Positions 4,254 to 16,011 of a DNA stretch of 64,000 nucleotides are shown here, in pieces. The first letter of the stretch is position 1. Each line of letters starts with the position of its first letter. The stretch is from contig NZ_QHHQ01000009.1 in assembly GCF_003258595.1 (NCBI RefSeq), positions 62,001 to 126,000 on the forward strand, given 5' to 3'. The stretch comes from Acuticoccus sediminis. Its GTDB lineage: Bacteria; Pseudomonadota; Alphaproteobacteria; Rhizobiales; Amorphaceae. The translations under genes were made by a program, and so were the position numbers. The notes under the pieces are model-generated. The model ran no database searches. It saw only the letters and a list, made by a program, of their open reading frames with translations, and was not told the origin of the DNA.

Positions 4254-4475
4254 ATGTTGCACGCTTGCCCGCTTCCGCAGCCGTCGCGCCTCCGTCCCGG
4301 CCGCAGCCGCCGCGCGCCCCTATCCACGCCCCCCCTCAGTCGGCCATCGTGACGGCGGAGAGATACGATGATTCCCTGCCTCGGCCGCACCACCGGGCGA
4401 GCAGGTCGCCAGACCGTCCGCCCGGAATGCGGTCGGTCGGGCCGGGGGGCATCGAACAATGGAGAGCGGGGCGGA

Positions 4476-5027
4476 ATGGGCACTTTGACGCGCAACTGGA
4501 CAACGGCATGGCGGCGGGCGGGCCGCGCCTTGGTTGTCACGATGGTCTCGCTGACCCTCTTCGGCGGCGTCACCGCCCGCGCCCAGAGCCCCGACGCCCT
4601 CACCGAGACCTACCGGGACTGGACCGTCCGGTGCAGCACGACCGACGGCGACGAGCGCCGCTGCTGGATGGTGCAGCGCCTCAACCGCACCGGCACCGAG
4701 GAACGCATCCTCCAGGTCGAGCTGGCGGTGTCGGGCGATACCTCCACGATGGTGTTCCTGCTCCCCTTCGGCATCCTCTTCTCGCCGGGCGTGAAGGTCG
4801 CGATCGACGAGGAGGCGGCGCGCACGCTGGCCTTCCGCACCTGCTACCCCTCCGGCTGCATCGTGCAGGAATCGCCGACCGACGCCGTGCTGAGCGCCAT
4901 GCGGCGCGGTCAGGCGATGACCGTCGGACTGGTGGTGGCGCAGAACGAGGCCGCGCTGAACCTCAGCGTCTCCCTCGCCGGCTTCTCGGCCGCCTACAAC
5001 AGGCTCTCCGAACTCTCCGCCGGCTGA
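4476..5027 (+). CDS. IalB-family (invasion-associated locus B) secreted protein
   Basis: A 183-residue protein with an N-terminal signal peptide (hydrophobic stretch about residues 15-32, cleavage near TARA-QS) followed by an IalB-type domain. Two cysteine pairs, in TVRCSTT/RRCWMVQ and FRTCYPSGCIV, match the disulfides expected of the family. IalB proteins are periplasmic or envelope proteins of unclear biochemical role, common as paralogues in alphaproteobacteria; the name comes from Bartonella and does not imply virulence here. The ATG at 4476 is preceded by purine-rich GGAGAGCGGGGCGGA; upstream in-frame ATG 4368 would add a non-signal-like leader. Confidence 0.75.
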   Translation: MGTLTRNWTTAWRRAGRALVVTMVSLTLFGGVTARAQSPDALTETYRDWTVRCSTTDGDERRCWMVQRLNRTGTEERILQVELAVSGDTSTMVFLLPFGILFSPGVKVAIDEEAARTLAFRTCYPSGCIVQESPTDAVLSAMRRGQAMTVGLVVAQNEAALNLSVSLAGFSAAYNRLSELSAG

Positions 5028-5282: not shown

Positions 5283-6098
5283 ATGGCGAAGCTGGCACGC
5301 GGGCAGTGGCAGGCGGTCGAGGAGGCCCTCGCGAAGGACATCGCGGGCGGCGCCTTCGGCGACACCATGCAGCTCCCGACCGAGGCGGCGATGATGGAGC
5401 GCTTCGGCGTCGGCCGCCACAGCGTGCGCCGCGCCGTCGCCGAGCTCGAACGGCGCGGCCTGGTCGACGTCCGCCACGGCAAGGGGGTCTTCGTGCGGAC
5501 GGGGCGGCTCGACTACCGCCTGTCCAACCGTACGCGCTTCTCGCAGAACCTCCTCGGTCAGGGCCGCGAGCCCTCCGGCCAGGCCCTGCGCGAGGAGGAG
5601 ATCAACGTGCCCGGCCACGTCGCCGAGGCGCTGCGCCTGCCGCCCGGCGAGCGCGTGTATCACATCGTGCGCCGCGGCCTCGCCGACGACGAGGTGGTGA
5701 ACTACTCCAACGCCTACTACCCGGTGCGCCGCTTTCCCGGCCTCAACGAGGCCCGCCGCGCCGGCCGCGGCACGACGGCCGTCCTCGCCGAGTACGGCGT
5801 GGCGGACTACATCCGCCTGCGCACCGACCTCGTCGTGCGCATGCCCTCGGCCGAGGAGGCGCGCCAGCTCGACCAGCCCCGCACCGTCCCCGTCATCGTC
5901 ACCAAGAAGGTCGACGTCGACATGCGGGGCGTGCCCATCAGCTACTCCGAGACGGCGTGGGCGAGCGAGCGCGTCCAGTTCTCGATCGACAACACTGCCG
6001 AGCTGCTCGACGCCCTCGCCGCCGCCGGCACGGCCGAGGCGGCGGAGCCGCCCGCTGCGCCGTCCGGGCCGCGGGTCAGGGTGCCGCGCGAGTCCTGA
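5283..6098 (+). CDS. phnF: GntR/UTRA transcriptional regulator, PhnF type
   Basis: A 271-residue regulator with an N-terminal GntR winged helix (about residues 8-75, LPTEAAMMERFGVGRHSVRRA) and a UTRA ligand-binding domain (about 95-240). The form RFGVGRHSVRRA and the NYSNAYYP segment resemble PhnF, the repressor encoded beside C-P lyase operons. It is convergent with phnM, 38 bases apart, which supports a role in controlling the phnGHIJKLM operon. Start at ATG 5283 is chosen because the domain begins immediately after it; an in-frame codon at 5178 would add a low-complexity leader and span the candidate operator. The alanine/proline-rich C-terminal tail is unremarkable. Confidence 0.82.
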   Translation: MAKLARGQWQAVEEALAKDIAGGAFGDTMQLPTEAAMMERFGVGRHSVRRAVAELERRGLVDVRHGKGVFVRTGRLDYRLSNRTRFSQNLLGQGREPSGQALREEEINVPGHVAEALRLPPGERVYHIVRRGLADDEVVNYSNAYYPVRRFPGLNEARRAGRGTTAVLAEYGVADYIRLRTDLVVRMPSAEEARQLDQPRTVPVIVTKKVDVDMRGVPISYSETAWASERVQFSIDNTAELLDALAAAGTAEAAEPPAAPSGPRVRVPRES

Positions 6099-6136
6099 CG
6101 GCGGCCCGGTGACGGCGGCCCGACGAGCGCGCGCCG

Positions 6137-7324
6137 TCAGAGGGCGAGGGCCGGCGCTCCCTGCGGCGCGACGGCGAGCGTGCCGTCGCCGTAGACCATC
6201 CGCCCGGCGCTGAAGGTGGCGCGCAGGCGCGGCCGCGGCGCGTGGTCGGCGACCACGAGGTCCGCCCTCAGCCCCGGCGCGATGGCGCCCCGGTCGTGAA
6301 GCCCCGCGGCGCGGGCCGGGTTGAGGCTGGTGAGCGCCGCCGCCTCCGGCAGCCCGCCCCGCAGGTCCGCCAGCAGGAGGATGGACGGCAGGATCGCCGG
6401 CGGGTGGTAGTCCGCGGCGAGGATGTCGAGCATCCCCATCTCGTAGAGCTCGCGGGCCGAGAGGTTGCCCGAGTAGGAGACGCCGCGCAGCGCGTTCGGC
6501 GCCCCCATCGCCGTCCACATCCCCCGCCGCTTGGCCTCGCGCGCGGCCTCGATCGTGACCGGAAACTCGCTGATCCCGGCGCCGAAGTCGCGCATCAGCG
6601 CCACCTTGTCGGCCGTGTCGTCGTCGTGCGAGGCGATGGCGATGCCGTGCTCGGCGGCGATCGCGGTCATCGCGGTGATCGTCGCCGTCGTGGTGCCGGC
6701 GGCGGCGAGACCGTCGGAGATGCGCTTCCTGACCTGCGTGTGCGCGTTCTCGACCGAGATGCCGCGCGCGTTCGCCATGAACGCGGCGTACTTCTCGATG
6801 TCGCGGTACTGGCCCTGCCCCGGGGTGTGGTCCATCAGCGAGACGAGGTCGACCGCGCCGCGCCGCATGAGGTCCTGCACCACCTCCGCCGCGCGCGGGA
6901 ACGTCACCTCGAAGCGGGCGTGGATGCGGTGGTCGACCAGCAGTTCGTCCCGCATGCCGACGATCGCCTCGATGATGCCGCGCGTCGTCTCCTCGGTGCG
7001 CACCTTGCCGGTGATGGGCGAGTTGGGGCTGAAGGAGAGCGAGGCGTAGGCCGTCGTCACGCCCGTCGCGGCGAGCTTCTTGTCGTGCTCCAGGATGGAG
7101 AGCTCGAGCGGCATCCTGACGCCGGGCCGCGGCTCCACCTCGCGCTCCACCATGTCGCCGTGGATGTCGATGAAGCCGGGCATCAGGAGCCGGCCGCCGC
7201 CACGGATCGCGGCCTCGGCGACAGGACCCTCGCGCACCTCGGCGATCCGCCCGTCCTCGATGCGCACGGCCCCGTTCGGGACCACGCGATCGGGGAGGAC
7301 GAGGTCGAACTCACTCAGCCACAT
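6137..7324 (-). CDS. phnM: PhnM-like metal-dependent triphosphate diphosphatase
   Basis: A 395-residue amidohydrolase-superfamily enzyme. In phosphonate degradation PhnM removes pyrophosphate from alpha-D-ribose 1-methylphosphonate 5-triphosphate. The metal motif GFIDIHGD (H55, D57), VSLMDHTPGQGQY, the ASHDDDT segment and MGAPNALRG match the family, as does its length. It is the last gene of the operon and overlaps phnL by 14 bases. All expected metal-site motifs look intact, in contrast to PhnJ in the same operon. If the complex does not make a methylphosphonate sugar, PhnM may act on another ribose 5-triphosphate derivative; that is inference. Confidence 0.9.
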   Translation of the reverse strand: MWLSEFDLVLPDRVVPNGAVRIEDGRIAEVREGPVAEAAIRGGGRLLMPGFIDIHGDMVEREVEPRPGVRMPLELSILEHDKKLAATGVTTAYASLSFSPNSPITGKVRTEETTRGIIEAIVGMRDELLVDHRIHARFEVTFPRAAEVVQDLMRRGAVDLVSLMDHTPGQGQYRDIEKYAAFMANARGISVENAHTQVRKRISDGLAAAGTTTATITAMTAIAAEHGIAIASHDDDTADKVALMRDFGAGISEFPVTIEAAREAKRRGMWTAMGAPNALRGVSYSGNLSARELYEMGMLDILAADYHPPAILPSILLLADLRGGLPEAAALTSLNPARAAGLHDRGAIAPGLRADLVVADHAPRPRLRATFSAGRMVYGDGTLAVAPQGAPALAL

Positions 7325-8087
7325 CGTCAGCCTCTTCGTGTTCGCGGCGTCGCTCCAGCCGGACGTCGCGGTCCACCAGGGGCGCGACGTCCTCGGGATG
7401 GTGGAAAACGCCGATCATCGCAACGCCTGCGGACTTCATGCTCGCGAGGCGCTCGACGAGGGCGGCGCGGGCCGTCCGGTCGAGCGAGGCGGTCGGCTCG
7501 TCGAGGAGGAGCAGCCGGGGCGGGTGGACCAGCGCGCGCGCAAGGTTCACCTTCTGCTGCTCCCCGCCCGAGAAGGTGGACGGATAGGCCGGCCACAGCG
7601 CCCGCTTAAGGCCGAAGGCCCCCAGCATGCGCCGCGCCTCCCGCCGCGCCTCCTCGCGGTCGCTGCCGGCGAGGAGGAGCGGTTCGGCGACCAGCTCCTC
7701 CGCCGAGACGCGCGGGCGGGCGTTGAGGAACTGCGTCACGAAGCCGATCTCGCCCTTGCGCAGCTCGACGATGTCGACGTCGGCGGCGCGGGCGAGGTCG
7801 ATGGACCGCCCGTCGGCCATGGTGAACACCGCCGAGCCCGCGCCGGGCAGGCAGGAGCGGTAGATCGTCCGCAGCAGCGTCGACTTCCCGGCCCCGTTCT
7901 CCCCCGTCAGCAGCAGGAACTCCCCGGCGCCGAGGGTGAAGGTGACGTCCGCGAACCCCGGCAGCAGGCGGCCGAGGTGATGCATCGTGAACGTCTTCGC
8001 GAGTCCCGCGACCGCGAGGACCGTGCCGGCCGGGGCAGGCGAGGGGGACCGGGCCGTGCCCCGGTCGTGGGTCATGTCGATGCTCAT
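7311..8087 (-). CDS. phnL: PhnL-like ABC-type ATPase of the Phn system
   Basis: A 258-residue ATPase with Walker A TGENGAGKSTLL, the Q-loop region IGFVTQFLNARPRVSAEELV, signature FSGGEQQKVNLARAL and Walker B LLLLDEPTASLD. These agree with PhnL, which in E. coli can dimerise with PhnK on the C-P lyase core complex rather than acting in membrane transport. The start ATG at 8087 overlaps the phnK stop (ATGA). A short charged C-terminal extension overlaps phnM. Confidence 0.9.
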   Translation of the reverse strand: MSIDMTHDRGTARSPSPAPAGTVLAVAGLAKTFTMHHLGRLLPGFADVTFTLGAGEFLLLTGENGAGKSTLLRTIYRSCLPGAGSAVFTMADGRSIDLARAADVDIVELRKGEIGFVTQFLNARPRVSAEELVAEPLLLAGSDREEARREARRMLGAFGLKRALWPAYPSTFSGGEQQKVNLARALVHPPRLLLLDEPTASLDRTARAALVERLASMKSAGVAMIGVFHHPEDVAPLVDRDVRLERRREHEEADDVAE

Positions 8088-8899
8088 AGCTTCGCGTGCA
8101 CGAGTTGCTGGGTGTAGGCGTGCTGGGGATCCTGGAACACCTGATCGGCGAGGCCCGCTTCGACGACCTCGCCATGCCGCATCACCATGACACGGTCCGC
8201 CATCGTGCGTATGACACCGAGGTCATGGCTGACGAGGACCATGGTGATCCGCCGTTCGCGCTGCAGCCGCTTCAGGGTGTCGAGCACCAGCGCCTGGACG
8301 CTGACGTCGAGGCCGGTGGTCGGCTCGTCGAGGAGCAGCAGCGTCGGCTCCAGGGCGATCGCCTTGGCGAGCTGCACGCGCTGCTGCATCCCGCCCGACA
8401 GCTCCACCGGCGGCCGGTCCATCCGTGCGATCGGGAAGTCCGAGGCGATGAGCGCGTCCTTCGCCCGCCGCCGCAGCTCGCCGAACCGCCGCTCCCCCGC
8501 GATCACCAGCCGCTCGGCGACGTTGCCGCTGGAGGAGTGGCGCATGCGCAGCCCGGCGTGCGGGTTCTGGTAGACGATGCCGATCTCGCGCGCCCGCAGC
8601 ATCCGTCGCTCGTAGCGGTCGAGTGTGAAGAGATCGGTGCCGCGGTGGGTGGGGATGTCCAGCGTGTAGCGGCCTGCGTCCGGCTCCTCCTCGAGGTTCA
8701 TGGCGCGCAGGAGGGTCGACTTGCCGGAGCCGGATTCGCCGACGATCCCCAGCACCTCGCCCGCGTAGACCGAGACGTCGACGCCCTTGAGCGCCTCGAC
8801 GTCGCCGTAGCGCCTGGCGACGCCCGTCATCGCGAGGAGGGGGGCGGCGGTGACGAGGGCCGGCGGCTCCCGCTGCGGCATGGCCATGGTGAGGCTCAT
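8084..8899 (-). CDS. phnK: PhnK-like ABC-type ATPase of the Phn system
   Basis: A 271-residue ATPase with Walker A GESGSGKSTLLRA, the PhnK-specific run NPHAGLRMRHSSSGNVAERL, signature LSGGMQQRVQLAKA and Walker B LLLLDEPTTGLDVSVQA. PhnK binds the PhnGHIJ core and is required for phosphonate use in E. coli; there it docks onto PhnJ. The ATG at 8899 overlaps the phnJ stop by 4 bases. The retained PhnK shows that the PhnJ-docked ATPase module is still under selection even though PhnJ has lost its cluster cysteines. Confidence 0.9.
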   Translation of the reverse strand: MSLTMAMPQREPPALVTAAPLLAMTGVARRYGDVEALKGVDVSVYAGEVLGIVGESGSGKSTLLRAMNLEEEPDAGRYTLDIPTHRGTDLFTLDRYERRMLRAREIGIVYQNPHAGLRMRHSSSGNVAERLVIAGERRFGELRRRAKDALIASDFPIARMDRPPVELSGGMQQRVQLAKAIALEPTLLLLDEPTTGLDVSVQALVLDTLKRLQRERRITMVLVSHDLGVIRTMADRVMVMRHGEVVEAGLADQVFQDPQHAYTQQLVHAKL

Positions 8900-9810
8900 C
8901 GCGCCATGCTCCCGTTCCTGTAATAGGTATCGCCGAGCGTCACCGGGGCGCCCTCGCGCTTCTGGATGTGCTTGGTGGCGAAGTGGCTGTCGGACATCTC
9001 GTGGAGCGACGCCCCGCCCGCCTGCGGCAGCTCGTTGAGGAAGTAGCCCGTCACGCCGCTGCGCCCGCAGGGGATGCCGGCGTGGTCCTCCACCCGGTAG
9101 GCGATGTCGTCGAAGACGAGCGGCACGACGTCGGTGTGCGGCGGCACCGCGTAGATGCGCTTCTCCCGCCCCGCCGAGAGGATCGTCAGGTTCTCCGCCT
9201 GGTGCAGCTTCGGCACGTCCCAGCGCGGGATCGGCGAGGGGCTCATGACGTGGCGGCCGTTGACGAGGCTCGGGTAGCTCGCGCCCTGCATGATGCGGCC
9301 CGAGCGCACGATCTGCTCGTAGAGCTTCAGCCAGAGGAGGCCGTAGTCGGCGTCCGCGTGGCGGTAGCGCGCCTCCGAGATATCGGGCTCCACCGAGCGC
9401 AGCGGCTCCGGGTCGGGAACCTGAAGCACGAGGATCTGGTCCGCCCGCAGCGTCTCCTCCGGGATCCGGTGGCGGGACTGGATGAGCGTCGCCTCGGTGG
9501 TGTCGAGCGTCTCGCCCGCGCCGCCGACGCGGCGCAGGAACTTGCGGATCGAGGCGGCGTTGACCGAGTCGTCCGCGCCCTGGTCGATGACCTTCACGAC
9601 GGCCGACGGCTTTAGGAGCGTCAGCGTCACCTGCAGGCCGCCGGTGCCCCAGCCGCGCGCCATCGGCACCTCGCGGCTGGCGTACGGCACCTGGTAGCCG
9701 GGGACGGCGATGGCCTTCAGCGTGCGGCGGCGGATCTCGCGCTTCGCCGACTCGTCGAGGAAGCCGTAGTTGAAGGGCCGCCATGGCCTGGTGAGGGTGG
9801 ACAGGCTCAC
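8896..9810 (-). CDS. phnJ: PhnJ-like C-P lyase subunit lacking three of the four catalytic/cluster cysteines
   Basis: A 304-residue protein that follows PhnJ over nearly its whole length: AVPGYQVP with the radical glycine retained (G38), GWGTGG, VIDQGADDSVNAASIR, SRHRIPE, PSPIPRWD and AGREKRIYAVPP. In E. coli PhnJ, Cys241, Cys244 and Cys266 hold the 4Fe-4S cluster and Cys272 forms the thiyl radical. Here the first is kept (C248), the second is Ser251 (PCGRSG in place of PCAICG), and no cysteine exists after residue 248, where EMSDSHFAT replaces the VCSDTDYC segment. The C-terminus is about 17-20 residues longer. A frameshift is unlikely: one alternative frame hits a stop and the other has no cysteine, and the 4-base overlap with phnK is normal. 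It starts at GTG 9810, overlapping phnI. Radical-SAM C-P cleavage is not expected from this protein. Confidence 0.9.
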   Translation of the reverse strand: MSLSTLTRPWRPFNYGFLDESAKREIRRRTLKAIAVPGYQVPYASREVPMARGWGTGGLQVTLTLLKPSAVVKVIDQGADDSVNAASIRKFLRRVGGAGETLDTTEATLIQSRHRIPEETLRADQILVLQVPDPEPLRSVEPDISEARYRHADADYGLLWLKLYEQIVRSGRIMQGASYPSLVNGRHVMSPSPIPRWDVPKLHQAENLTILSAGREKRIYAVPPHTDVVPLVFDDIAYRVEDHAGIPCGRSGVTGYFLNELPQAGGASLHEMSDSHFATKHIQKREGAPVTLGDTYYRNGSMAR

Positions 9811-10922
9811 GACAGCGCCTCCTCGATCTCGGCCCCGGACATCCTGTCCGCCTTCGGCCTGGCCTTCGCCCGGGCGGCGCGGCGGTCGCGGTCGGCGTTG
9901 GCGCCGCGCAGGGCGTCGAGGCTCGACTGGAACGTGACGTAGTGCGGCATCTTGAAGTGGATGCAGAAGCCCGACGCCTCGGTGGGTTCGGTGTGGTAGA
10001 GGACGAACTCCTCGTCGGCGGCGGCGAAGGCGCTTTGCTCCTCCATCGAGAGGTCGAGGGTCGCGCCGGCGATGGTCTTCACCTCGTTCCAGCCGAACGT
10101 CGCGCAGAAGCCGAGCTTCAGCGTGTCCGCCCTCGGGTCCTTCGACACCATCTCCGTCTCGCTGACGCGCACGCGCCCGGCGCTGAAGACCGTGCCGCGC
10201 GGGTGGCGCAGACGCACCTCCGCCTCGCCGAGCCGCAGGTCGTTGACGGCGGGGTGGACGGGGCCGTAGCCGCGCTGGTTGGCGTAGCCGAGGGCCAGCA
10301 TGCCGCCGGTGTCGCCGCGCGCCAGCGTCTGGAGCCGGTGCGCCCGGGGCGGCGGAAAGAGGAGCCCGTCGCGCGTCACGTCGGGAATGTCGTCGAGCGG
10401 GACCTTCGCGGCGCGCTCGGGCGCGACGAGGCCCTGCTCGCGCTGCCAGTCGGCGAGCGCCGGCTGCGTGGCAGGCGCGGAGGTCCTGCCGGGGGTGACG
10501 GGCTCCGGCACGTCCGTCTCGCCGGCGAGGACGCCGACTTTCAGGAGGCGGTGCGAGTAGTCGAGCGTCGGTCCGAGGATCTGCCCGCCGGGAATGTCCT
10601 TGAACGCGGCGGAGATGCGGCGGACGGTGAGGATGTCGCGGTGGGTGACCGGCTCGGCGGTCCACAGGCGCGGCTGCGTCGTGCGGTAGGCGCGCAGGAG
10701 CAGCACCGCCTCGTAGAGCTCGCCGCCCGTCTGCGCCAGCGCCAGCGCCGCGAGGTCCGGCTCGTAGAGCGAGGCTTCGCCCATCACGCGGTCGACGAGG
10801 TAGGGGAGCGCCCGGCGCACCTCGGCGATGCGCCCTGCCGTGAGGGGGCCGAGGTCGTCGCGGTAGAGGCGCTCGGCCTGCGCGATCGCCTCCTCGCCGC
10901 CGCGGGTCGCTGCGTAGGCCAT
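9807..10922 (-). CDS. phnI: PhnI-like nucleosidase/phosphonate transfer subunit
   Basis: A 371-residue PhnI homologue. In E. coli PhnI alone cleaves ATP or GTP to base and ribose 5-triphosphate; with PhnG, PhnH and PhnL it makes the 5'-triphosphoribosyl phosphonate. Conserved stretches include FLLRAYRTT-like LLLRAYRTT, RRISAAFKDIPGGQILGPT, DYSHRLL, LALGYANQRGYG and IHFKMPHYVTF, whose two histidines (H322, H327) correspond to the zinc-binding pair at the PhnI-PhnJ interface. ATG 10922 overlaps the phnH stop by one base, and its stop overlaps phnJ. All visible active-site features are intact. Confidence 0.92.
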   Translation of the reverse strand: MAYAATRGGEEAIAQAERLYRDDLGPLTAGRIAEVRRALPYLVDRVMGEASLYEPDLAALALAQTGGELYEAVLLLRAYRTTQPRLWTAEPVTHRDILTVRRISAAFKDIPGGQILGPTLDYSHRLLKVGVLAGETDVPEPVTPGRTSAPATQPALADWQREQGLVAPERAAKVPLDDIPDVTRDGLLFPPPRAHRLQTLARGDTGGMLALGYANQRGYGPVHPAVNDLRLGEAEVRLRHPRGTVFSAGRVRVSETEMVSKDPRADTLKLGFCATFGWNEVKTIAGATLDLSMEEQSAFAAADEEFVLYHTEPTEASGFCIHFKMPHYVTFQSSLDALRGANADRDRRAARAKARPKADRMSGAEIEEALS

Positions 10923-11467
10923 CAGATCACCTCGATGCGGGTGGAGCGGGGAAGGCCGACGACCTCGTCCTCGGCGACGAGGTAGAGGTCGAAGCCCAGC
11001 GGGTAGCGGATCGCCCTCGCGCGCGCGGCCCAGAACGACGGGTGGACGCCGCCGACCGGGAGGCGGACGGTGCCGCGGATGCCGGGCCCGCCGAGCCGCA
11101 GCGCCGTCCCGCCGCCGCCGAACGTTGCGGGCGCGAAGACGGTGGCAGCGCGGTCCGGGTAGAGCGGATCGCCGACCGACGCCGTCGCCGCCCGCGCCGC
11201 GTCCGCCTCGCCGGCGAGGGAGGTGAAGACGAACTCCGCCGTCTCGAGGGGCGCCGCGCGGGCGCCGGTCGCGGCGAGGGCCGCGGCCATCGTCCCGTCG
11301 CCGGCGTGAACCGTCGTCTCGCGGTCGAGGAGGCTGGCGGCCAGCGGCAGAAGGCCCGGCTCGGCGAGACGCTGGCGCGTGCCGGGGCGGGCGAGCGCCC
11401 ACATCAGCGACTCGAACGCCTCACTCATTCGAATGTCTTCGGGGGTCGGGGTGACGAGTGCGTCCAT
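10922..11467 (-). CDS. phnH: PhnH-like subunit of the Phn complex
   Basis: A 181-residue protein matching PhnH in length and in its landmarks: an N-terminal SEAFESLMWALARPGT helix, LRLGGPGIRGTVRL, and the terminal FDLYLVAEDEVVGLPRSTRIEV. PhnH is a PLP-fold protein without PLP that forms part of the GHIJ core and is needed for the nucleotide-phosphonate step. The start ATG 11467 touches the phnG stop (one-base overlap). Residues 1-13 could be trimmed to an internal ATG, but the overlap favours 11467. Confidence 0.87.
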   Translation of the reverse strand: MDALVTPTPEDIRMSEAFESLMWALARPGTRQRLAEPGLLPLAASLLDRETTVHAGDGTMAAALAATGARAAPLETAEFVFTSLAGEADAARAATASVGDPLYPDRAATVFAPATFGGGGTALRLGGPGIRGTVRLPVGGVHPSFWAARARAIRYPLGFDLYLVAEDEVVGLPRSTRIEVI

Positions 11468-11934
11468 CAGAAGGCCTCCATCTCGACGCGAGTCGCCTCG
11501 ACCTTGGCGAGCCGGGCGGTGTCCTCCGCCGCGTGGCGCGCCGCCTCCCCGGCGACGAAGTCGTGGACGGAGCGCGGCGCGCGGCCGGCCGCGAGCGCGG
11601 CGTCGACCACCGCCATCGCCATCGCCCGCTCCAGGTCGCGGCCGACGACGGCGCCGTACCCCTCGACACCGTCGCCGAGCCGGATGTGCGCCTCCGCGAC
11701 CAGCACCTCGCCGAGATGGAACAGCGTTCCCGTCACGCTGTCCTCGCGCGGCAGCATGGCGAGGCCCGTCCGGCTCGCCAACACCTCGATGTCGCCGAGG
11801 TCCTCCAGCAGCGCTTCGGCGACGCGCTTGAGCGCGCCCGGTTCGGCGCGGGCGAGGGTGCCGAGCGTGTGCGCGTCGGGGCATGCTGGGCCCGCCGCAC
11901 CGGTGGCGGATCCTCCGAGGTCGTTCCCACTCAC
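11467..11934 (-). CDS. phnG: PhnG-like subunit of the Phn complex
   Basis: With the GTG start at 11934 the product has 155 residues, close to E. coli PhnG. Typical features are LGEVLVAEAHIRLGDG, GYGAVVGRDLERAMAMAVVDA and a terminal VEATRVEMEAF. The GTG is preceded by a strong GGAGGGGGA ribosome-binding site, whereas the in-frame ATG at 11982 has only a weak one and would encode a glycine-rich leader; both are possible. First gene of a seven-gene phnGHIJKLM unit in which all junctions overlap. A copy of the 13-base motif also found before phnF lies 64 bases upstream of the GTG. Confidence 0.82.
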   Translation of the reverse strand: MSGNDLGGSATGAAGPACPDAHTLGTLARAEPGALKRVAEALLEDLGDIEVLASRTGLAMLPREDSVTGTLFHLGEVLVAEAHIRLGDGVEGYGAVVGRDLERAMAMAVVDAALAAGRAPRSVHDFVAGEAARHAAEDTARLAKVEATRVEMEAF

Positions 11935-12344
11935 TGTCCGTCCCCCTCCGTCGGGCGCGCCGCAGACGGCACGCAGTGTCATCCGTACTTCTACTATGTC
12001 ATTCGAATAAGTTCTGCCATAGGGAGGCGACAGTATGATGACGGCGCGTGCGATTCCCCGCCGCCCCCGTGCGGCTCGACGGCGCCTCGCCCGTCCGCGG
12101 CGTCCGCCGCGAGTGGCCGGCGCGGCCCTCCGTCGGGTCGTGGCACCTCGTCACGGCGCCGGTTCCCATCGGCGGGCGTTCGGGCGATCCTGCCGCGCGG
12201 AGGCGGGGCGCCGGGGGCACGGCACTACCGAAAGGTGTGCCGCCGGGGCCGGATGGCCCGTGTCCTGCTTCACACCAGAAACGACCGCCTTGCCTCGCCT
12301 GTCGCGCGCCGGCTGACGGGGCGGGGCAAAGAGAGGATACCCGA
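11935..12344. other. Intergenic region between the divergent phn operon and ggt-like gene
   Basis: About 410 bases with no supported gene. It contains the phnG ribosome-binding site, the PhnF-type motif near 12000 inside a locally AT-richer segment (about 11980-12040), and a GC-rich stretch leading to the ggt-like gene. Promoters for both directions presumably lie here, but no convincing -35/-10 pair was found. Confidence 0.5.
11998..12010 (-). promoter_or_regulatory. Candidate PhnF-type operator upstream of phnG
   Basis: Read on the minus strand the site is TTATTCGAATGAC, matching the phnF upstream motif at 12 of 13 positions and containing the palindromic core TTCGAA. It lies within outer arms CTATG/CATAG and 64 bases before the preferred phnG GTG. 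Binding by PhnF is inferred from the shared motif and its position. Confidence 0.45.
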
Positions 12345-13931
12345 ATGACCCGCCGCGACTTCAACGCCGGCCGATCCGCCGTCTATTCCCAGAATGGAGC
12401 AGCCGCGACCGCCCACCCCCTCGCGACACTTACCGCGATCGACGTGCTGCGCTCCGGTGGCAACGCCGTCGACGCGGCGATCGCCGCGATGGCCCAGCTC
12501 TGCGTGATCGAGCCCCACTCGACCGGACTCGGCGGCGACTGCTTCGCGATCTACTGGAAGGCCGGCAGCCCGCGGCCCATCGGCCTCAACGCCTCCGGGC
12601 GCGCCCCGAAGGCCGCGACGCTCGACTGGTACCGCGAGGCGGGCATCGCCGAGATCCAGGTCGAGACGCCCCATGCCGTGACCGTCCCCGGCGCCGTCGA
12701 CGGCTGGTGCCGCCTCGTCGAGGACCACGGCACGAAGTCCATCGAGGAGCTGCTGCAGCCGGCGATCAAGTCGGCGGAGGATGGCTTCCTCCTCGCCCCG
12801 CGGGTTGCGCACGACTGGGCCAGGCTCGCCGGCAAGCTCGCGCTCGATCCCTACACCAAGGCCCGCTTCCTGCCCGGCGGCAAGGCGCCGAGGGCCGGCG
12901 ACCGCCACGTGCAGCCGGAGCTCGCCGAAACGCTCCGCCGGGTGGGCAGGGAAGGCCGCAAGGGCTTCTACGAGGGCCCCGTCGCCGAGGACATCGTCGG
13001 CCGCCTCAAGACGCTGGGCGGCCTCCACACCCTGGAGGACTTCGCCACCAACACGCCGACCTACGTCGACCCGATCAGCGTCAACTACCGCGGCTACGAC
13101 GTCTACGAGATCCCGCCCGCCGGGCAGGGCATCGTGGCTCTCATCATGCTCAACATCCTCTCCGGCTACGCCTACGGGGATCCGGGCTACAGCGAGGCCG
13201 ACCGCATCCACCTCCTCGCGGAGGCCGCCAAGGCCGCGTACGCCCGCCGCAACGCGCTGATCGGCGACCCGGCCTTCGTCGACGTGCCGACCGACCACCT
13301 TCTCTCCGCCGCCGAGGCCGATCGCATCCGCGCCGACATCGACCTGAAGCGCGCCAGGGAACCGGCCCCGGTCGAGCCGATGATGCACTCCGACACGACC
13401 TACCTCACCGTGGTCGACAAGGACCGCAACGCGATCTCGTTCATCAACTCGCTGTTCTCCGGGTTCGGCTCCGGCATCATGGGGCCGCAGAGCGGCGTCA
13501 TGCTGCAGAACCGCGGCACCAGCTTCCGCCTGATCGACGGGCACCCGAACGTCATCGAGCCCGGCAAGCGGCCGATGCACACGATCATCCCGGCGATGCT
13601 CGGCGAGGGAGACCGGATGGTGATGCCGTTCGGCGTCATGGGCGGGCACTACCAGCCCGTCGGCCACTCCACCGTCGTCACCGGCATGCTCGACCTCGCC
13701 CTCGACCCGCAGGACGCGCTCGCCGCCCCGCGCTCCTTCGCCTTCGACGGCGAGCTGCGCCTCGAGGCGACGATCTCCGACGAGGTCGCCGCCGATCTTG
13801 CCGCCCGCGGCCACAAGGTCGTGCGCCAGGACCCGGTCGGCGGCGGCCAGGCCATCTGGTTCGACCATGATCGCGACGTCCTCATCGCCGGATCCGAGCC
13901 GCGCAAGGACGGCTGTGCCCTTGCGTATTGA
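12345..13931 (+). CDS. Gamma-glutamyltransferase-family Ntn hydrolase
   Basis: A 528-residue GGT-family proenzyme. Autocleavage is expected before the nucleophile Thr351 in HSDTTYLTVVD, giving subunits of about 350 and 178 residues. The oxyanion/substrate region FGSGIMGPQSGVMLQNR and PGKRPMHTIIPAM follow the family. No signal peptide is present, so a cytoplasmic enzyme acting on an imported gamma-glutamyl or related amide is likely. Start ATG 12345 has an upstream GAGAGGA. It directly precedes dipeptide importer ATPases on the same strand and is divergent from phnG, suggesting a joint uptake-and-hydrolysis module. The true substrate is unknown; family members include acylases as well as transferases. 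Confidence 0.82.
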   Translation: MTRRDFNAGRSAVYSQNGAAATAHPLATLTAIDVLRSGGNAVDAAIAAMAQLCVIEPHSTGLGGDCFAIYWKAGSPRPIGLNASGRAPKAATLDWYREAGIAEIQVETPHAVTVPGAVDGWCRLVEDHGTKSIEELLQPAIKSAEDGFLLAPRVAHDWARLAGKLALDPYTKARFLPGGKAPRAGDRHVQPELAETLRRVGREGRKGFYEGPVAEDIVGRLKTLGGLHTLEDFATNTPTYVDPISVNYRGYDVYEIPPAGQGIVALIMLNILSGYAYGDPGYSEADRIHLLAEAAKAAYARRNALIGDPAFVDVPTDHLLSAAEADRIRADIDLKRAREPAPVEPMMHSDTTYLTVVDKDRNAISFINSLFSGFGSGIMGPQSGVMLQNRGTSFRLIDGHPNVIEPGKRPMHTIIPAMLGEGDRMVMPFGVMGGHYQPVGHSTVVTGMLDLALDPQDALAAPRSFAFDGELRLEATISDEVAADLAARGHKVVRQDPVGGGQAIWFDHDRDVLIAGSEPRKDGCALAY

Positions 13932-13997
13932 TCGCCCTGCCGGGACGCGCGAGACGGCAGCCGCCGCGGGCCGGGCGGACATCGGGGGGCGGCTCCG

Positions 13998-15056
13998 ATG
14001 TCCGTGATCGAGGAGGCACCCGCGATCGCAGGGGCCGCCGCCACGGCGGCCCCGGTCCTCGCCATCGACGGGCTGAAGACGCAGTTCTTCACCCGCGACG
14101 GCATCGTGCGGGCCGTCGACGGCGTCTCGTTCGACGTGCGCCGCGGCGAGACCGTCGGCGTCGTCGGCGAATCGGGCAGCGGCAAGAGCGTGACCGCGCT
14201 GTCGATCATGCGCCTCCTCTCCAAGCGGACGGGGCGCATCGTGGACGGCACGATCCGCCTCGGCGCGGAGGACATCGTCGGCGCCTCCGAGCCGCGCATG
14301 CGACAGATCCGCGGCAAGGTCGCCTCGATGATCTTCCAGGAGCCGATGACGAGCCTCAACCCGGTGCTCAAGATCGGCTACCAGATCACCGAGACGATCC
14401 GCGTGCACGAGGGGCTCGGCCGCGCCGAGGCCCGCAGGCGCGCCGTCGAGATGCTGCGTCTCGTGCGCATCCCCGAGCCGGAGCGGCGCATCGCGCAGTA
14501 CCCGTTCGAGCTCTCCGGCGGCATGCGCCAGCGCGTCATGATCGCCATGGCGCTTGCCTGCAACCCGCAGCTCCTCATCGCCGACGAGGCGACGACCGCC
14601 CTCGACGTCACCATCCAGGCGCAGATCCTCCAGCTCATCCTGGAGCTGCGCCAGAAGCTCGGCATGGCGGTCATCATGATCACCCACGACCTCGGCGTCG
14701 TCGCCGAGACGTGCGACCGCCTCGTCGTCATGTACGCCGGCAAGGTCGTCGAGCGCGGCACCGTGCGGGAGGTGTTCCGCCGGCCGCTGCACCCGTACAC
14801 GAAGGGGCTCCTCGCCTCGATCCCGCGGCTGCCGCAGAAGGGCGCCGTGCCGAAGGGCCGGCGGGGCAAGCTCGTGGAGCTGCCGGGCTTCGTGCCGTCG
14901 CTGCGCGACGTGCCGGCCGGCTGCCGCTTCGCCCCGCGCTGCGCCCTCGCGACCGACCGCTGCCGTGCGGAGGAACCTCCGCTCATGGAGATGGTCCCCG
15001 GCCGCCTGACCGCCTGCTTCGAGGCGCACCGCCTGATGGAGGGCGCCGATGCCTGA
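13998..15056 (+). CDS. Dipeptide/oligopeptide ABC transporter ATPase, DppD-like
   Basis: A 352-residue ATPase with Walker A GESGSGKSV near residue 57, signature ELSGGMRQRVMIAMAL, Walker B LLIADEATTALD, and the oligopeptide-family C-terminal extension with spaced cysteines (CRFAPRCALATDRC). It powers the importer whose permeases and binding protein are encoded convergently at 16160-19811. The start at ATG 13998 follows a GC-rich gap of 66 bases after the ggt-like gene, and the stop overlaps the next ATPase by 8 bases. Confidence 0.9.
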   Translation: MSVIEEAPAIAGAAATAAPVLAIDGLKTQFFTRDGIVRAVDGVSFDVRRGETVGVVGESGSGKSVTALSIMRLLSKRTGRIVDGTIRLGAEDIVGASEPRMRQIRGKVASMIFQEPMTSLNPVLKIGYQITETIRVHEGLGRAEARRRAVEMLRLVRIPEPERRIAQYPFELSGGMRQRVMIAMALACNPQLLIADEATTALDVTIQAQILQLILELRQKLGMAVIMITHDLGVVAETCDRLVVMYAGKVVERGTVREVFRRPLHPYTKGLLASIPRLPQKGAVPKGRRGKLVELPGFVPSLRDVPAGCRFAPRCALATDRCRAEEPPLMEMVPGRLTACFEAHRLMEGADA

Positions 15057-16011
15057 TCCACGTCCGCTCGTGGTCGACCGGCTGACCAAGCACTATCCGG
15101 TGCGCCGCGGCCTCTTCAACAGCGAGGTCGCCAAGGTCCATGCCGTCGACGGCGTCAGCTTCGAGCTGGGTCACGCCGAGACGCTCGGCCTCGTCGGCGA
15201 GAGCGGCTGCGGCAAGTCCACCGTGGGCCGCTGCATCCTGCGTCTCGTCGAGCCGACGGACGGGACGATCGCGCTCGGCGGGACCGACATCACCCACCTC
15301 GACCGCCACGCGATGCGCCCGCACCGCCAGCGCCTGCAGGCGATCTTCCAGGACCCGTATTCGTCGCTCAACCAGCGCATGAAGGCGGGGGACATCGTCG
15401 CCGAGCCGCTCGTGAACTTCGGCCAGCGCCCCACCCGCGACTATATCGGCGACCTGCTGGAGAAGGTCGGCCTGCGGCGGGAACAGATGGACCACTACCC
15501 GCACGAGTTCTCCGGCGGCCAGCGCCAGCGCCTCGTCATCGCCAAGGCCCTCGCCCTCGAGCCCTCGGTGATCGTCTGCGACGAGGCGGTGTCGGCGCTC
15601 GACGTGTCGGTCCAGGCGCAGGTCATCAACCTGCTGACCGAGCTGCAGGAGCGGCACAGGATCGCCTACCTGTTCATCGCCCACGATCTCGCGGTGGTGG
15701 AGCACATCAGCCACCGCATCGCGGTGATGTACCTGGGGCAGATCGTCGAGCTGGCGGAAAAGCGCGACCTCTTCGAGGAGCCGCTCCACCCGTATACCCG
15801 GGCCCTTCTCGAGGCCGTGCCGATCCCGGACCCCGAGGTGGAGCGGGACAAGACGATCATCTCCGGCGACGTCCCGAGCCCGGTCTCCCCGCCGTCAGGG
15901 TGCCGCTTCCACACCCGCTGCCCGCACGCCTTCGACCGCTGCCGGAGCGAGCCGCCCGCCTACCGAGAGGTGAAGGCCGGACACTTCGCGGCCTGCCACC
16001 TCAACGACTGA
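15049..16011 (+). CDS. Dipeptide/oligopeptide ABC transporter ATPase, DppF-like
   Basis: A 320-residue partner ATPase: Walker [14 protein letters not shown] near residue 50, the DppF/OppF signature run [15 protein letters not shown] signature [15 protein letters not shown], Walker [18 protein letters not shown], and a C-terminal cysteine motif [14 protein letters not shown]. Such proteins heterodimerise with the DppD-like subunit. It closes the plus-strand ggt-dppDF unit and faces the permease operon across a 148-base gap containing a strong hairpin. Confidence 0.9.

Follow-up and report, generated by a model that had tools for sequence, protein, structure and literature searches.

A conserved, cluster-free C-P lyase variant whose PhnJ lacks three of the four conserved cysteines

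Introduction

In the canonical thiyl mechanism of C-P lyase, as given in passages of PMC11978286 and PMC9947105, the PhnJ subunit acts through Cys272 and the radical glycine Gly32. Passages of the latter source call the mechanism of the complex an unresolved conundrum and place the Fe-S site about 30 Å from the radical glycine, with a separate zinc site that holds a product-like ligand. The locus considered here lies in a window of 64,000 nucleotides from Acuticoccus sediminis (contig NZ_QHHQ01000009.1, positions 62,001 to 126,000) and encodes a PhnJ from which three of the four cysteines 241, 244, 266 and 272 are missing (these positions and G32 follow E. coli PhnJ numbering). Is such a protein a decaying remnant, a sequencing error or a functional subunit, and if functional, what might its complex do? 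We show that it belongs to a C-P lyase variant that is conserved and cluster-free, and that neither decay nor a sequencing error accounts for it. Members of such operons, marked by an asterisk in our annotation, are here called Cys-less PhnJ, Cys-less-operon PhnI and so on.

Results

A PhnJ with a single remaining cysteine

The genes and residues of interest in the window are as follows.

5283 to 6098, plus strand: phnF-type GntR/UTRA regulator (TIGR02325, 202 bits, cut-off 156.8)
6137 to 7324, minus strand: phnM, RPnTP diphosphatase (NF011988, 560 bits, and TIGR02318, 444 bits, both above cut-off)
7311 to 8087, minus strand: phnL, ABC ATPase (top NCBIfam match TIGR02324 PhnL, 231 bits, under the cut-off of 256.3)
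8084 to 8899, minus strand: phnK, ABC ATPase (top NCBIfam match TIGR02323 PhnK, 221 bits, under the cut-off of 302.85)
8896 to 9810, minus strand: Cys-less phnJ, 304 amino acids, GTG start (Pfam PF06007, 391 bits)
8896 to 9075, minus strand: C-terminal domain of Cys-less PhnJ, with a tail longer than that of E. coli
9697 to 9699, minus strand: codon of Gly38, the retained radical glycine G32 (from residue columns)
9807 to 10922, minus strand: phnI, nucleosidase subunit (PF05861, 361 bits)
10922 to 11479, minus strand: phnH, start approximate (PF05845 and TIGR03292 above cut-off)
11467 to 11982, minus strand: phnG, start approximate (PF06754 and TIGR03293 above cut-off)

These phn genes form a complete core operon, tightly packed in the order phnG-H-I-J-K-L-M, on which the phnF-type regulator gene converges; no phnCDE genes adjoin it within positions 1-24000 of the window. 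A GTGA overlap joins phnJ to phnI and an ATGA overlap joins it to phnK, whose ATG overlaps the phnJ stop. The PF06007 match, far over the cut-off of 25 bits, spans the whole domain (residues 13-282 on profile positions 3-273 of 275). As determined from aligned columns, only C241 of the four cysteines is retained, as Cys248 (codon 9067-9069), and no cysteine follows it in the 304-residue translation; C244 is replaced by Ser251 (9058-9060), C266 by Met272 (8995-8997) and C272 by Ala278 (8977-8979). The columns thus bear out a preliminary description of this DNA, which had noted Gly38, the change of C-x-x-C to C-x-x-S and the lack of any later cysteine. Its statement that the Fe-S and thiyl cysteines are lost holds for three of them, including the proposed thiyl residue C272, but not for C241. 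It had also considered a frameshift unlikely, in agreement with the sound GTGA and ATGA overlaps and with a relative of 88% identity (L003) that carries identical replacements. The gene is a paralogue: the host genome also encodes a four-cysteine PhnJ (G000:C1:1362523, L001).

Two further features flank the operon. An IalB-family protein gene (4368-5027, plus strand) lies between an ABC transporter and phnF, and divergent from the phn operon (12048-16011, plus strand) stand a gamma-glutamyltranspeptidase gene and then two genes for oligopeptide-type ABC ATPases. Genes of the same peptide-transporter clusters also accompany the Cys-less operons of L005 (a permease gene), L006 (permease and ATPase genes) and L020 (an ATPase gene), which may point to peptide-borne phosphonates.

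The structure model of Cys-less PhnJ has a mean pLDDT of 67.7, with values of 80-91 in the block of residues 241-300; being weak at the pocket (residues 28-55 below 50), it was used for the fold and the C-terminal domain alone. A prediction for PhnI was discarded (mean pLDDT 51.9). The top Foldseek match of the PhnJ model is E. coli PhnJ (7z19_D, E = 1.5e-27). With E. coli PhnJ (PDB 4xb6, 7z15-7z19) the protein shares about 50% identity and the fold over 267-274 columns in six PhnJ chains, whereas C244, C266 and C272 are present only in the E. coli protein and Cys-less PhnJ has conserved C-terminal residues and a longer tail of its own. PhnH chains were also matched in this search. PhnH, a PhnJ-homologous subunit of C-P lyase that has no C-terminal domain, resembles Cys-less PhnJ in having a PhnJ-related fold without a cluster. 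It differs in being encoded by a separate gene of the same operon, and Cys-less PhnJ still has the PhnJ pocket as well as the C-terminal domain.

Cys-less PhnJ proteins form one clade under purifying selection

We aligned 203 PhnJ proteins that differ in a central stretch, taken from the best 80 relatives plus further genome draws. All four cysteines are present in 142, C244, C266 and C272 are lost together in 61, and partial sets occur in none of the 203. C241 is the sole remaining cysteine of the four in 59 of the 61 Cys-less proteins, and in the other two, where it is replaced by Asp, none remains. An N-terminal PhnJ fragment with undecidable cysteines (L151 in G620) was excluded from these counts, and L176 and L177 were counted as four-cysteine proteins from the alignment. 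Among the best 80 relatives, Cys-less PhnJ is found in 28 loci (L003-L029 and one of the two PhnJ in L037), the rest being four-cysteine proteins. By locus, the hosts of the 61 are Alphaproteobacteria in 39 cases and Chloroflexota-type in 22, many of them metagenome-assembled genomes (MAGs); two of the Chloroflexota-type hosts bear the titles 'Bacteroidetes bacterium' and 'bacterium' (L024, L028).

A PhnJ tree was computed with the C-terminal domain removed, from 34 Cys-less and 54 four-cysteine rows (88 after thinning). One branch, supported at 100/100, separates all 34 Cys-less rows from the others, which corresponds to a single change of state. A quick PhnI tree of 67 rows, from which column 326 was removed, likewise has a branch (SH-aLRT 100) that sets the 23 rows from Cys-less operons apart. 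For 12 close Cys-less pairs dN/dS is 0.02-0.24 over the whole phnJ gene, and for 11 pairs it is 0.07-0.57 over the C-terminal domain (one pair was saturated), showing purifying selection. The domain that lost the cysteines has a signature of its own: in 38 Cys-less proteins E235, E265, a Pro after NE(I/L), a Lys after the lost C272 column and a GxT.Y...G tail are conserved, all of them absent from four-cysteine PhnJ. In the full set of 61, E235 does not vary and E265 is kept in 53.

The loss of three residues considered essential might be read as decay, a pseudogene or a sequencing error, and remnants do lie near some relatives (PhnJ fragments in G003, broken DUF1045 genes in L005 and L218). 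This explanation, to which we give a negligible probability, is refuted because the Cys-less forms make a clade: 61 distinct sequences, one supported branch, clade-specific conserved C-terminal residues and the low dN/dS of the whole gene all speak against it. The preliminary description had favoured a cluster-free clade over decay and had asked for the cysteine columns to be compared across the family; the 203 PhnJ include no intermediates, the Cys-less rows sampled for the tree form one clade on a 100/100 branch rather than scattered losses, and selection is purifying.

Distribution and copy number

In three draws of proteobacterial genomes, a Cys-less copy was recognised by at least 69% identity to the window protein and was read where its locus was returned; matches of at most 61% identity went mostly unread, and Cys-less forms that distant would be missed by the following counts. 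PhnJ was found in 65 of 385 genomes of Alphaproteobacteria (Cys-less in 2), in 83 of 398 of the phylum (Cys-less in 5, all from the window's class) and in 119 of 248 of the Haematobacter family (Cys-less in 14). From the class of an Anaerolineae MAG, 9 of 298 genomes encode PhnJ, and all nine main copies are Cys-less, one genome having the undecidable fragment L151 in addition; from the phylum of that MAG, 27 of 301 genomes encode PhnJ and 9 of these 27 the Cys-less form, with no second copy found in the nine. The draws overlap, G000, G050 and G023 being counted twice.

A set of 29 genomes with a Cys-less gene (23 Alphaproteobacteria and six Chloroflexota-type MAGs) was used for copy numbers. 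A four-cysteine PhnJ is also present in 19 of the 23 Alphaproteobacteria, and in G017 a second copy is broken across two contigs, leaving its cysteine state unread. Within the Haematobacter family, 12 of the 14 Cys-less genomes contain another match, 48-53% identical to the window protein, a count by identity alone, with cysteines unread. The two types may even be neighbours: three cases of a Cys-less operon and a divergent four-cysteine phn operon on the same locus or contig resemble phosphonate islands (L037; G1394:C103 with L218 and L219; G1283:C1 with L220 and L221).

This frequent co-occurrence, to which G017 and the Haematobacter matches may add, would suit a feeder or scaffold, in which Cys-less PhnJ merely holds PhnK and PhnL and closes the pocket, the reaction ends at 5-phosphoribosyl phosphonate, and this product is then cleaved by a canonical PhnJ complex of the same cell. 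We regard this as unlikely, for the Cys-less protein is the only PhnJ found in all six Chloroflexota-type MAGs of the set, in four Alphaproteobacteria (G001, G008, G012, G1051) and in all nine Cys-less genomes of the Chloroflexota draw. As many of these genomes are MAGs, a second copy may have been missed in each of them; in at least two of the four Alphaproteobacteria, the MAGs G001 and G012, a canonical operon may have dropped out during assembly. The invariant ligand pocket (see below) and the Cys-less copy as the sole PhnJ found in several Chloroflexota speak against a purely structural role, which the preliminary description had also entertained.

Operon partners and neighbourhood

The neighbourhoods of 29 Cys-less genes were compared (positions 1-24000 of the window and the 28 loci from the best 80 relatives). 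phnF, G, H, I, J, K, L and M, phnC, phnD and two phnE recur. phnG, H, I, K and L are kept, and phnM is recognised in 25 of the 29 loci; it was not seen near the Cys-less gene in L003, L005, L028 (at a contig end) and L037, nor in L224. The intact phnGHIJKLM operon claimed before is real in the window, but no phnM is recognised in four of the 29 stretches. Transporter genes of phnCDE type lie beside the operon at 17 of the 23 alphaproteobacterial loci; at 5 of the 6 Chloroflexota-type loci they stand ahead of phnG. A hexapeptide-repeat transferase is encoded near 13 of the 29 genes (TIGR03308 above cut-off in both cases tested), and beyond these phn, phnCDE and hexapeptide-repeat genes no cluster occurs in more than five of the 29 neighbourhoods, the clusters being only partly annotated.

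The preliminary description proposed a test of whether Cys-less PhnJ always occurs without phnP. This gene does not discriminate and was ruled out as a marker, because the PhnP cut-off is reached by none of 30 and none of 26 genomes, whichever PhnJ they encode, and full-length sub-threshold matches above 80 bits occur with both types (8/8 Cys-less and 10/18 four-cysteine Chloroflexota). BLAST with E. coli PhnP finds matches in 7 of 52 canonical loci, all Gamma- or Betaproteobacteria by title, and in none of 27 Cys-less loci, a contrast that is mostly a lineage effect.

DUF1045, proposed in passages of PMC8235418 as a phosphodiesterase for the cyclic ribose phosphate PRcP, is encoded in all four Alphaproteobacteria in which only the Cys-less PhnJ was found, and PhnN in the three of them tested; both counts cover PhnJ-bearing genomes alone. 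Close to the operon both are less common: DUF1045 is found near 6 of 24 alphaproteobacterial Cys-less stretches (two copies broken) versus 24 of 52 canonical loci, and PhnN near 5 of 24 versus 29 of 52. The broken DUF1045 remnants (L005, 7476-7826; L218, 4318-4996 and 17406-18124) suggest that some hosts lost a local copy. In Chloroflexota-type genomes with only the Cys-less PhnJ, PhnN is over its cut-off in none of 14; this absence is uninformative, with 0 of 26 over cut-off for either PhnJ type.

Some neighbourhoods hold additional phosphorus-related genes. L024 and L025 carry a PhnX-type phosphonatase and a TIGR03364 FAD oxidoreductase (models run on L024). Directly after phnL in L224 (Chloroflexota; 6054-7570, minus strand) lie an endonuclease/exonuclease/phosphatase-family gene and a 2H-phosphoesterase-like gene, the latter a weak DUF1045/TIGR03223 relative under cut-off. 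Upstream of phnF in L021 and L023 are genes for a sugar/glycerol-phosphate type ABC transporter and a metallophosphodiesterase (SpdA-like, 187 bits, under cut-off, tested in L023 only).

The ligand pocket and zinc site are retained

In the E. coli structure, according to passages of PMC9947105, modelled PRcP contacts PhnJ R107, Q124, H108 and loop 47-50, and the zinc is bound by PhnI H328 and H333, joined in the open state by H219. The same passages state that PRcP was built into the zinc site even though phosphonate had not been added, and that mass spectrometry left its identity unconfirmed. The Cys-less system resembles E. coli C-P lyase in its operon partners and in G32 and the ligand-pocket residues. 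G32, R40, G47, G49, T50, G51, R107, H108 and Q124 are identical in all 61 Cys-less PhnJ, and W48 is retained in all 38 in which it was compared. PhnI H219, H328 and H333 are kept in 28 of 28 Cys-less operons; in the window PhnI, H322 and H327 correspond to H328 and H333.

The window PhnI has an additional cysteine, C320 (codon 9963-9965), at the position of Val326 in E. coli. This C326 stands two residues before the zinc ligand H328 in all 61 Cys-less systems (motif GFCIH-K-PHY) and, from this sequence spacing, would lie close to the zinc. Among four-cysteine systems it occurs in 3 of the 134 with a readable motif, eight more being unreadable. The three carriers (the second copy of L037, L193 and L214) belong to a divergent four-cysteine PhnJ group from Gamma- and Betaproteobacteria and some Rhodobacterales, which shares C326 with the Cys-less systems and, in L037, the locus as well. 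They differ from Cys-less PhnJ in having all four cysteines; in the PhnJ tree the L037 copy falls outside the Cys-less branch, and in the PhnI tree all three do so. C326 is therefore not exclusive, and its use as an exclusive marker of Cys-less systems is weakened by these three carriers.

Could the complex still be a radical C-P lyase that draws its cluster or thiyl cysteine from another place, such as PhnI C326 or a cysteine at PhnJ position 33, beside G32? The constancy of C326 and G32 fits this idea, and Cys33 is found in 33 of the 61 Cys-less PhnJ, many of them alphaproteobacterial, but the other 28 have Tyr, Phe or His there (Tyr in the window). No replacement cysteine set was found in another subunit, each having at most one column with Cys in at least half of the Cys-less operons, and no extra gene cluster recurs in more than five of the 29 partly annotated neighbourhoods. 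Together these data make a still-radical enzyme distinctly unlikely.

Other subunits and the transporter protein PhnD

No canonical-invariant column is altered in 25 PhnM compared, Cys-less-operon PhnM, PhnK and PhnL retain nearly all family-invariant columns, and PhnK Q90, D170, E171 and H204 are kept in 28 of 28 operons. PhnI alters 18 canonical-invariant columns by majority, among these E252, which is Gln in 26 of 28 Cys-less operons (the window and L003 retain Glu), and D318, which is Glu in all 28.

In PhnD, the phosphate-head residues Y47, Y93, S127, T128 and H157 are retained in all 24 aligned proteins linked to Cys-less operons, and no clear substrate shift is evident from the alignment. 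The amine clamp for 2-AEP, E177/D205 (passages of PMC12718374), is missing from these PhnD, and for this reason a GpxB-like glycerol-phosphate transporter was considered. It was rejected because the GpxB pair R/T is unseen in the larger alignment (a smaller one has Arg at the first clamp site in three rows out of 23) and because GG, the most frequent pair, is found in canonical operons as well (14/24 Cys-less-linked versus 16/33 canonical).

These data bear on the idea that the nucleosidase reaction itself is wanted, whether to make a ribosyl or PRPP-like compound or to serve an acceptor without phosphorus, and that the phosphorus-bond step is irrelevant. PhnM, PhnK, PhnL and the PhnI zinc histidines are kept and only PhnJ has lost known catalytic residues, which would accord with such a purpose, although PhnI does have its 18 altered columns, E252 and D318 included; the adjoining phnCDE-type genes in most loci of both host groups and the intact phosphate head of PhnD argue against it, and we consider it quite improbable.

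Discussion

The Cys-less complex is very probably a cluster-free enzyme under selection. Its PhnJ lacks the combination of 4Fe-4S cysteines and thiyl cysteine that marks a radical SAM C-P lyase, and from the missing cluster ligands and C272 it is predicted to be unable to perform the standard radical-SAM reaction. With the presumed driving cysteines of that reaction gone from its central subunit, the complex probably carries out different chemistry.

Our leading proposal, tentative and somewhat short of probable, is heterolysis at the PhnI/PhnJ zinc site, where the ribosylated intermediate would lose the bond between phosphorus and its substituent. PhnGHI(L) would still exchange the base of a purine nucleotide for the organophosphorus substrate, and PhnM would still trim the triphosphate to the 5-phosphoribosyl-1-organophosphorus intermediate. 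PhnJ would form no thiyl radical; instead, the ribose 2'-OH would displace the leaving group at the zinc site and yield PRcP without Fe-S cluster or SAM. The leaving group would depart as an anion, through cleavage of a P-O, P-N or activated P-C bond, and suited substrates may be phosphate esters, phosphoramidates and activated phosphonates.

Heterolytic cleavage agrees with the PRcP modelled at the E. coli zinc site without phosphonate supply, and with DUF1045 and PhnN in every tested Alphaproteobacterium that has only the Cys-less copy. We also count in its favour the absence of partial cysteine sets, the invariant pocket, the zinc histidines, C326, the unaltered PhnM columns and the dN/dS values. 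Against it we count that DUF1045 and PhnN lie near only a minority of operons, that at least two of the four Alphaproteobacteria with only the Cys-less copy are MAGs, that phnM was not seen near some operons, that PhnN is below cut-off in Chloroflexota with either PhnJ type, that PhnD shows no clear shift and that C326 is not exclusive. The more specific picture of a radical-free, cluster-free route to organic phosphorus, in which the 2'-OH expels the group in the manner of an RNase at a C326-supplemented zinc site to give PRcP, the cyclic product that C-P lyase also forms, is in our view doubtful; being free of radical and cluster, such a route would possibly be oxygen-tolerant.

We found no description of a PhnJ without these cysteines in the open-licence PubMed Central literature, a scope outside which subscription papers and preprints lie, and the novelty of the variant is therefore provisional. 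The clade also raises an annotation issue. According to passages of PMC9381506 and PMC11978286, surveys take phnJ to stand for C-P lyase and methane release; the Pfam PhnJ model also accepts members of the Cys-less clade. In a recent study the presence of the four cysteines served as its own check of functional PhnJ (passages of PMC11978286); by that check, as given there, Cys-less genes fail.

A natural lineage has dropped Fe-S and thiyl residues, kept the zinc site and added a cysteine that may lie nearby. The two sites are thereby separated genetically, and the question of the C-P lyase mechanism therefore becomes testable. If the radical-free, cluster-free route is real, the zinc site, rather than the distant Fe-S site, would be where the phosphorus chemistry of C-P lyase occurs. 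The Cys-less complex, carried by some soil and water bacteria, is a natural test of how C-P lyase works.
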